Assembly: GCF_000186865.1 (NCBI RefSeq)
Contig: NW_008705572.1
Coordinates: 852,870 to 916,869 of the forward strand
Origin: Aureococcus anophagefferens
Taxonomy: Eukaryota; Sar; Pelagophyceae; Pelagomonadales; Pelagomonadaceae
Direction: 5' to 3'
Length of the DNA: 64,000 nucleotides
Shown: piece by piece, positions 49,962-51,125 of the stretch
Layout of the letters: each line of letters starts with the position of its first letter
Position numbering within the stretch: position 1 is the first letter of the stretch
Program-made: the position numbers and the translations under genes
The notes under the pieces: generated by a model
Database searches by the model: none
The model's input: only the letters and a program-made list of their open reading frames with translations
Told to the model about the DNA's origin: nothing

Positions 49962-51125
49962 TCACTTCTTCTTGAAGAAGGAGGTCATCGTCTTCTGGCC
50001 GTCCTTGGGCTTGCGCTCGATGGGGACGTCGTCGATGCCGTCGGGCGCGGGCGGCCGGGGCTGGTTCTTCTTGCCGCCGAGGGAGACGTCGCGCTGGTCC
50101 CAGGCGAAGGTGACCTCGTTGGGCCCGCGCGTGCCGTGCTGGCGGAAGGCGCCCGGCCACTTGTGCTTGAGGAGCGCGATGCTGTGCTGCTCGCGCGCGT
50201 CGCAGCGCGCGTCGACGGCGCCGCCGGCGTTCGAGTAGTGCTCCCAGAGGCAGAGGACGCGGTTCGAGCGGCAGACGGCGCCGTGCTCGTGCATGTGCTG
50301 CGCCGTGTAGTCGTAGTCCTCCTTGAGCGTGATGCGCTCGTCGAAGCGGAGGTCCGTCCGCGCGACGTCGACGACGAGGCAGTCGCCGACGATGAAGTGG
50401 TGGCCGCCGATCGGCGCGACGCCGGCCGCGAGGCCCGGGTTCGCGTTGGGGTAGCAGCCCGCGAGGCGCCGGTCCGTGGCCTTGAGGAGGCTGAGTAGGA
50501 GCGCGGCCGCGGCGACGGGCGTCGCCTGGAGCTTGTCCGCGCCCGCCGCGTTGGCCTTCTTGAGGCTCTCGGGCTTGGTCCAGAGGGCCTCGTCGTGGAA
50601 GTGGGCGAGCGTCGGCCCCGCGCGCACGACCTCGCACTTCTTGAGGTCGTCGCTGAGCTGCACGCACGCGTTCGACGACTTCCGGGCCTCGTCGAGCGCG
50701 AGGTTCCGCGAGTTGCAGAGGCCGCCGCCCTCGACGACGCGGCCCTGGGCGCCGGCGGCCTCGTACTCGGACCGCTCGCCGCCGCCGACGATCCAGAGGA
50801 TGCGCTTCGGGTCGAGGCCGCCCGCGAGGAGCCGCGCCTCCATGGGCTTCACGTTCGCCCACCGCGACTTGCTGATGATGCAGAAGAGGAGGCCCTCGCC
50901 GAAGGACGACGTCTGCGCGCCGAGCACCGAGGCGACGTAGGCGTCGCCCGCGGCGCACGCCTCCTCGACCTGGGCCTGCGTCAGCGTCGACGCCTTGCGG
51001 CGCTTCGCCTTCGGCTTGCAGACCAGCTCGTCCGAGTCCTCGTCCTCGTCCTCCTGGTTTTGGTAGTTCACCTCGGTCTTGCACGCGCGCTTGGGGCTCG
51101 CGCGCGCCTCAGAGACGACGGCCAT
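49962..51125 (-). CDS. TET-associated-glycosyltransferase-like (TAGT/GREB1-type) protein with PIP box
   Basis: 387 residues. The N-terminus has an acidic patch and a basic cluster C-K-P-K-A-K-R-R-K-A that reads as a nuclear localisation signal. The GT-A-like domain (about 75-330) shows L-L-F-C-I-I-S-K-S-R-W-A-N, I-L-W-I-V-G-G-G-E, G-G-L-C-N-S-R-N-L-A-L-D-E-A and V-Q-L-S-D-D-L-K-K (DxD equivalent). F-D-E-R-I-T-L-K-E-D-Y-D-Y-T-A-Q-H and L-C-L-W-E-H-Y-S-N-A-G-G-A follow. This resembles the TAGT family described with phage base-modification systems and the GREB1 C-terminus. The last residues Q377-K-T-M-T-S-F-F384-K-K-K form a textbook PCNA-interacting (PIP) box. I infer a nuclear enzyme that glycosylates hydroxylated DNA bases at replication forks; the TAGT call is by eye. 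Confidence 0.6.
   Translation of the reverse strand: MAVVSEARASPKRACKTEVNYQNQEDEDEDSDELVCKPKAKRRKASTLTQAQVEEACAAGDAYVASVLGAQTSSFGEGLLFCIISKSRWANVKPMEARLLAGGLDPKRILWIVGGGERSEYEAAGAQGRVVEGGGLCNSRNLALDEARKSSNACVQLSDDLKKCEVVRAGPTLAHFHDEALWTKPESLKKANAAGADKLQATPVAAAALLLSLLKATDRRLAGCYPNANPGLAAGVAPIGGHHFIVGDCLVVDVARTDLRFDERITLKEDYDYTAQHMHEHGAVCRSNRVLCLWEHYSNAGGAVDARCDAREQHSIALLKHKWPGAFRQHGTRGPNEVTFAWDQRDVSLGGKKNQPRPPAPDGIDDVPIERKPKDGQKTMTSFFKKK

Follow-up and report, generated by a model that had tools for sequence, protein, structure and literature searches.

A divergent TAGT-type glycosyltransferase carrying a PIP box at its C-terminus in Aureococcus anophagefferens, possibly linking sugar transfer onto DNA to replication

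The window analysed here, the whole 64,000-nucleotide stretch of contig NW_008705572.1 (positions 852,870 to 916,869) of the pelagophyte alga Aureococcus anophagefferens, holds a gene for a glycosyltransferase of the TAGT (TET-associated glycosyltransferase) type. Its product ends in a motif of the kind that binds the sliding clamp PCNA, the PCNA-interacting peptide (PIP) box. The open reading frame (ORF) had been located by a sequence-only reading, the coordinates of which proved exact; the strand, which that reading did not state, is minus. The gene and its parts, in window coordinates, are:

49962..51125, minus strand: TAGT-type glycosyltransferase gene with a C-terminal PIP box, 387 residues plus stop (ATG at 51125; the stop codon ends at 49962).
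50100..50891, minus strand: GT-A catalytic core, approximately residues 79-342, from invariant alignment columns and the structural model.
49962..49997, minus strand: C-terminal tail, residues 377-387 (QKTMTSFFKKK) plus stop, with the PIP box QKTMTSFF at residues 377-384.
50982..51125, minus strand: N-terminal acidic/basic segment, probably disordered, residues ~1-48, from sequence and a low predicted local distance difference test (pLDDT) score, which is under 50 for residues 1-32; contains CKPKAKRRKAS, which by eye resembles a nuclear localisation signal (NLS).

The ORF looks coding, because G+C reaches 99% at third codon positions (0.675, 0.469 and 0.990 at positions 1, 2 and 3) and its ATG is preceded by an in-frame stop. 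Hydropathy analysis gave no signal-peptide-like or membrane segment: the top Kyte-Doolittle mean is 0.41 over 11 residues within residues 1-60, and 1.40 over 19 residues within the whole protein. A Golgi or secretory glycosyltransferase was considered and ruled out, as the N-terminus is not hydrophobic and the family is TAGT. The nuclear signal proposed for the protein was found in so far as the basic sequence is present, although its status as an NLS was judged by eye only and is thus putative.

A Pfam scan of the protein at E ≤ 10 returned PF20691 (TAGT) as the sole match (E 0.0066, 16.8 bits). Relatives were collected by a protein search scoring 7994 candidates, 79 of them at E ≤ 0.01, which we sorted into 30 eukaryote-like proteins (212-616 residues) and 49 short proteins of phage/prokaryote type (220-253 residues). 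Among the eukaryote-like relatives, sources named include Zooxanthella, a dinoflagellate, and Pelagophyceae sp. CCMP2097; outside this set the closest relatives are stand-alone TAGTs of phage type. Precomputed PF20691 annotation is present in 25 of the 49 short relatives, the phmmer relatives annotated PF20691.4 include P0037 (E 4.9e-29), and 26/30 aligned family members match PF20691 at E ≤ 0.01. Comparison of the eukaryote-like (30 rows) and phage-type (22 rows) profiles with hhalign gave a probability of 100 and an E-value of 3.3e-78, and the SDD, KEDY and GGA motifs are kept in every row of both sets. In the window protein the invariant core motifs lie at residues 158-160 (SDD), 268-271 (KEDY) and 296-303 (HxxNxGGA).

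The AlphaFold2 model of the window protein has a pLDDT of 87.1 and a predicted template modelling (TM) score of 0.84, with pLDDT ≥ 90 in 296 of 387 residues. Among viral structures searched with Foldseek, the best match to this model is a phage TAGT (E 3e-16, TM-score 0.85 on the target); at rank 17 stands a beta-glucosyl-hydroxymethylcytosine-alpha-glucosyltransferase of a phage. The top rows from the PDB are generic GT-A enzymes, and the neighbours shown there act mostly on protein or polysaccharide. The family sequence profile matched nothing in the PDB at E ≤ 1, and the single window sequence gave zero direct matches among viral contigs and annotated phages, so that viral relatives had to be sought with a profile. 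The TAGT-like GT-A core postulated from the sequence is borne out by the profile comparison, the conserved motifs and the match of the model to phage TAGTs. Profile-profile and structural comparison both place the protein in TAGT, although its single-sequence Pfam score falls below the curated cut-off, and for this reason we file it, judging from sequence and model, as a divergent subfamily of the TAGT superfamily and not as a canonical PF20691 member. Among the relatives, P0015 and P0018 are TAGTs with a cysteine-rich N-terminus that looks zinc-finger-like by eye; P0018 also has a PHD-finger match (E 0.00095) below the curated cut-off.

The second sequence feature put forward earlier, a perfect C-terminal Q-x-x-M-x-x-F-F, is present as Q377-K-T-M-T-S-F-F384, after which only KKK and the stop remain. 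Residues 379-387 have a pLDDT below 50 in the model, with a short helix at 382-384. When the strict motif Q-x-x-[ILMV]-x-x-[FY]-[FY] was counted in 109 proteins (108 relatives and the window protein), it occurred in ten (the window protein, P0001-P0006, P0011, P0016 and P0022), behind the catalytic core in all ten and nowhere else in the 109. The box is kept in the six nearest matches of the window protein (P0001-P0006) and recurs in some relatives 40-46% identical to it, and P0012 and P0014 have the xxΨxSFF part without the Q. A looser pattern, applied to the first 79 proteins, added matches outside the tail (P0018, P0047, P0063) and behind the core (P0027), which were not counted. When each PIP-bearing tail was shuffled 20,000 times, such a motif arose in 0.005-0.11% of cases (0.03% for the window tail); on this frequency and the tail-only placement of the strict motif we reject a chance origin. 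We do not claim a PIP degron of the CRL4-Cdt2 type, as the motif has neither the T-D pair nor the basic residue at +4.

The wider genome (49.05 Mb in 86 contigs, searched with introns ignored) was also examined for the use of this motif. It has one PCNA gene and five XPG/FEN1-family loci, two of which carry a PIP motif in ORFs of the correct strand (QRRMDSFF at residue 568 of 608 and QKRIDDFF at 403 of 589), and from these sequences the host therefore appears to use the PIP code. The DNMT5-like ORF of the alga has no PIP motif.

A link between TAGTs and Tet_JBP dioxygenases is seen in viral relatives. With a profile built from the short relatives, 283 loci were detected in viral contigs and 80 were kept; from these 80, a set of 50 records, for the most part longer ones, was scanned for Tet_JBP. 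A match at E ≤ 0.01 was found in 41 of the 50, 37 of them above the curated cut-off. For the control, 50 records were taken from 80 that a random 14-mer had listed, with virus type unmatched; one of them gave a weak match and none was above the cut-off. In 28 of the 41 records the two matches lie no more than 1 kb apart, in 39 no more than 3 kb, and in 40 they share a strand. In addition, P0106, a 704-residue protein from a metagenome contig of 3322 bases, reads as an apparent Tet_JBP-TAGT fusion in a single ORF, although it may be an assembly chimera. Its Tet_JBP part (residues 126-288) scores 58.2 bits, over the cut-off, and the TAGT part that follows was found by the family profile (E 8.5e-67) and is unreported by Pfam.

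Further TAGT genes lie elsewhere in the algal genome:

L001, G000:C8:1356687-1357343: separate gene of the TAGT fold on another contig than the window gene; it scores 57-58 bits for PF20691, above the cut-off, and is typical of that family.
L003, G000:C3:897524-898486: paralogue of the window gene, 47% identical, with no PIP motif in the 400-residue stretch read.

These data bear on the acceptor. A nuclear, PCNA-bound transferase could glycosylate protein, such as PCNA itself, a replication factor or histones, and not DNA bases, which we regard as unlikely. GREB1 reportedly glycosylates protein, as claimed in a 2021 paper, and the presence of the PF20691-typical gene L001 means that the family need not be single-purpose. 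The protein- and polysaccharide-directed enzymes among the PDB neighbours could be counted on the same side, but GT-A neighbours say nothing about the acceptor. Weighing the other way, viral genes next to Tet_JBP are among the nearest relatives of the window protein beyond the eukaryote-like set, one relative (P0106) is fused to Tet_JBP, and the PF20691 chemistry described in the published extracts that we found acts on DNA.

As a check, the sequence-only reading had suggested looking for TET/JBP dioxygenases in the same genome. TET/JBP-like genes are present, as an expanded TET-like family of 16 matches unlinked to the window gene, but fall below the Pfam Tet_JBP cut-off. The member studied most closely is:

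G000:C5:545476-546825 (L004:679-2028), minus strand: gene for a TET/JBP-like dioxygenase with a fused ILEI domain.

In the family alignment of this protein, Tet_JBP is matched at E ≤ 0.01 by 11 of 31 members. Its modelled fold is the double-stranded beta-helix of TET type, and the Fe(II)-binding HxD and distal H are represented by H114 (30/31 rows), D116 (31/31) and H176 (24/31). Both H114 and D116 are found in 10 of the 12 TET-like locus ids of the alga that were examined, one of which (L015) has a PIP match, QNNLGEFY. The best fold match to the modelled ILEI domain is the sugar-binding stem of POMGnT1, and D338 and R370, which match Asp179 and Arg207 of POMGnT1, are invariant in all 31 aligned relatives. 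By model and analogy, the L004 protein may read the sugar through its ILEI domain and write in the vicinity, in the manner of JBP1 with base J. Among relatives of this TET-like/ILEI type, precomputed Pfam gives extra domains: a Tudor-like domain in P0133, and chromodomains in P0147 and P0158.

Our proposal is that a nuclear, PCNA-tethered TAGT glycosylates oxidised pyrimidines in nuclear DNA, coupled to replication; judged from sequence, model and analogy, its chances seem to us somewhat better than even. The TET/JBP-like dioxygenases would oxidise a DNA pyrimidine (5-methylcytosine or thymine) to a hydroxymethyl base, onto which the window TAGT would move a sugar from a nucleotide-sugar. The C-terminal PIP box would dock the TAGT on PCNA, and the mark would be renewed every cell cycle, because the clamp-bound enzyme would act on the new duplex behind the fork. 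That the algal TAGT would use a hydroxymethyl base directly is an assumption made by analogy. The interpretation offered by the sequence-only reading is supported, with weak spots: the family, fold, intact motifs and PIP box of the enzyme, the TET-like genes, and the viral TET/TAGT linkage find direct support in sequence or model, and from them we infer the biology, that is, nuclear location, PCNA binding, DNA as acceptor, and the choice of base and sugar.

Several observations weigh against this proposal. The single-sequence PF20691 score of the window protein, 16.8 bits, is below the curated cut-off of 27.5, and the Tet_JBP score of the L004 protein, 18.7 bits, is below the cut-off of 34.9, which is why we call it TET/JBP-like. 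The acceptor of the T6 TAGT is an already glucosylated base, unlike the hydroxymethyl acceptor proposed here. The history of the PIP box is uneven as well. In a quick tree of 105 rows (P0002, P0023, P0105, P0107 and P0108 excluded), nine PIP rows sit in one 15-row clade with a Shimodaira-Hasegawa-like approximate likelihood ratio test (SH-aLRT) value of 90, and the motif is absent from six of its 15 rows. Over all rows the tree needs three PIP changes (shuffled mean 8.8), of which the starred branches force two, and on these counts the box would have been gained once with losses, or gained several times. Many relatives are metagenomic ORFs with possibly wrong ends, and truncated ones may add false PIP absences.

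The same components can be read in other ways. A repair helper is one, in which the PIP box is real and the transferase caps hydroxymethyluracil or similar lesions without leaving a heritable mark. The fold and PIP-box inferences would apply equally to it, and many PIP-box proteins are repair factors; we nevertheless consider it highly improbable, as the expanded TET-like family (16 matches), with relatives bearing chromatin and sugar-binding-like domains, suggests programmed modification. In another reading, which we think quite unlikely, the sugar would serve self/non-self recognition or defence, tagging the alga's own DNA or that of an invading virus during replication; clamp binding would then give access to replicating DNA generally and not serve epigenetic maintenance. 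The tag would reach all PCNA-replicated DNA, related TAGTs adjoin Tet_JBP in viral contigs, and phage base modifications evade host restriction (PMC13216743), whereas the chromo- and Tudor-domain TET-like relatives point to chromatin regulation.

Replication-coupled glycosylation of nuclear DNA, the reading that we prefer, could also be part of something larger, although we offer this extension tentatively and hold it to be rather unlikely. In a self-propagating epigenetic mark of sugar on DNA, the ILEI-fused TET/JBP-like protein would read a glycosylated base and oxidise nearby pyrimidines, to which the PCNA-tethered TAGT would add sugar. Replication would then pass the mark on through a reader-writer loop, the parts of which are unrelated to the kinetoplastid reader. 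Were this so, the abundant hydroxymethyluracil of dinoflagellates would also be partly glycosylated, given their related TAGTs. These dinoflagellate-type TAGTs (our label) form one clade of 30 rows (P0025, P0026, P0032-P0034 and P0080-P0104), with named members that include symbB gene models (presumably Breviolum minutum), Zooxanthella, Polarella and 'Pelagod...'. Seven that were aligned share a conserved N-terminal region (WLPDDWGQG...), for which neither Pfam nor the PDB gave a match. An MBD-like domain in this N-terminal half was suspected by eye and is unsupported (Pfam 0/7; the best PDB match is an antibody, E 0.079). Dinoflagellates are said in a 2024 paper not to have evolved the base J step (PMC11071213).

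Two neighbours of the window gene are ordinary: 48166-49842 (minus strand) encodes a dihydrouridine synthase (Dus) that also matches a CCCH zinc finger weakly, and 43381-47124 (plus strand) an ankyrin/MYND protein. A 1276-residue ORF at 52289-56119 (plus strand) gives nothing in Pfam at E ≤ 0.001, and a mobile element there is only a guess.

TAGTs, their association with TET, and clamp-bound DNA glucosyltransferases are each known already. Among the matches listed in the open-licence literature, we found no eukaryotic TAGT with a PIP box, no TET-like enzyme fused to a sugar-binding-like domain, and, on PCNA-coupled sugar transfer, nothing beyond Leishmania work that looks unrelated. Complex base modification in stramenopile algae had reportedly been predicted in a 2013 computational paper on TAGTs. 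To our knowledge, base J of kinetoplastids and Euglena is the sole case of a glycosylated DNA base in the nuclear genome of a cellular organism. Its occurrence in Euglena is stated in PMC11071213, and DNMT5-correlated methylation is reported for Aureococcus. The present analysis adds specific genes from a further lineage, for a transferase, for oxidising enzymes and for what may be a sugar reader, and a proposal that couples sugar transfer to replication through PCNA. Put simply, the gene content suggests that this alga may attach sugars to its DNA while copying it.

Among known systems, GREB1 is the vertebrate point of comparison: a long multidomain protein with GREB1-specific domains, the C-terminal domain of which was reportedly assigned to a TAGT-like fold of the PF20691 superfamily in the 2013 prediction paper. 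The window protein does not belong to the GREB1 family, having 387 residues and TAGT alone reported by Pfam at E ≤ 10; it stands alone and close to phage-type TAGTs, and the PF20691-typical gene of this genome is L001. With phage TAGTs (PF20691), such as the T6 beta-glucosyl-HMC-alpha-glucosyltransferase, it shares the GT-A superfamily and the SDD and KEDY motifs. Many phage-type TAGTs are encoded beside Tet_JBP, whereas the algal gene lies in a eukaryotic genome, is unlinked to dioxygenases, and adds an NLS-like N-terminal extension and a C-terminal PIP box. According to PMC13216743, the TAGT of T2 and T6 puts a second glucose on alpha-glucosylated cytosine, and among 753 phage genomes there are 288 in which a TAGT occurs but the other two enzymes do not.

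A functional precedent for a clamp-bound DNA-base glucosyltransferase is the T4 alpha-glucosyltransferase with the gp45 clamp; for the algal enzyme, PCNA tethering is predicted from sequence. As the same paper describes it, the T4 enzyme co-purifies with gp45 and is proposed to act with replication, the alpha/beta ratio being set by expression and activity rather than by clamp affinity, and it has a GT-B fold (PF11440) with no appreciable sequence similarity to TAGT (PMC13216743). The window protein, in contrast, is modelled as GT-A with a eukaryotic PIP box and falls outside PF11440, as Pfam gives TAGT only; the folds differ, and the likeness in clamp binding would therefore be convergent.

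The kinetoplastid base J pathway (JBP1/JBP2 and the base J glucosyltransferase) resembles the algal proposal in its two steps, oxidation and then glucosylation, in a nuclear genome. JBP1 is a dioxygenase with a modified-base reader, its J-binding domain, and the putative algal reader has an unlike fold, similar to ILEI and the POMGnT1 stem. We know of no PIP box in the base J transferase. The pathway proceeds by oxidation to hydroxymethyluracil, followed by glucosylation (PMC11071213).

A parallel in logic comes from DNA methylation. DNMT1 is a DNA-base modifier that a PIP box keeps at the fork, where it maintains a mark, and on PCNA it would follow the same logic as that proposed for the algal TAGT, with a different chemistry and a different fold.
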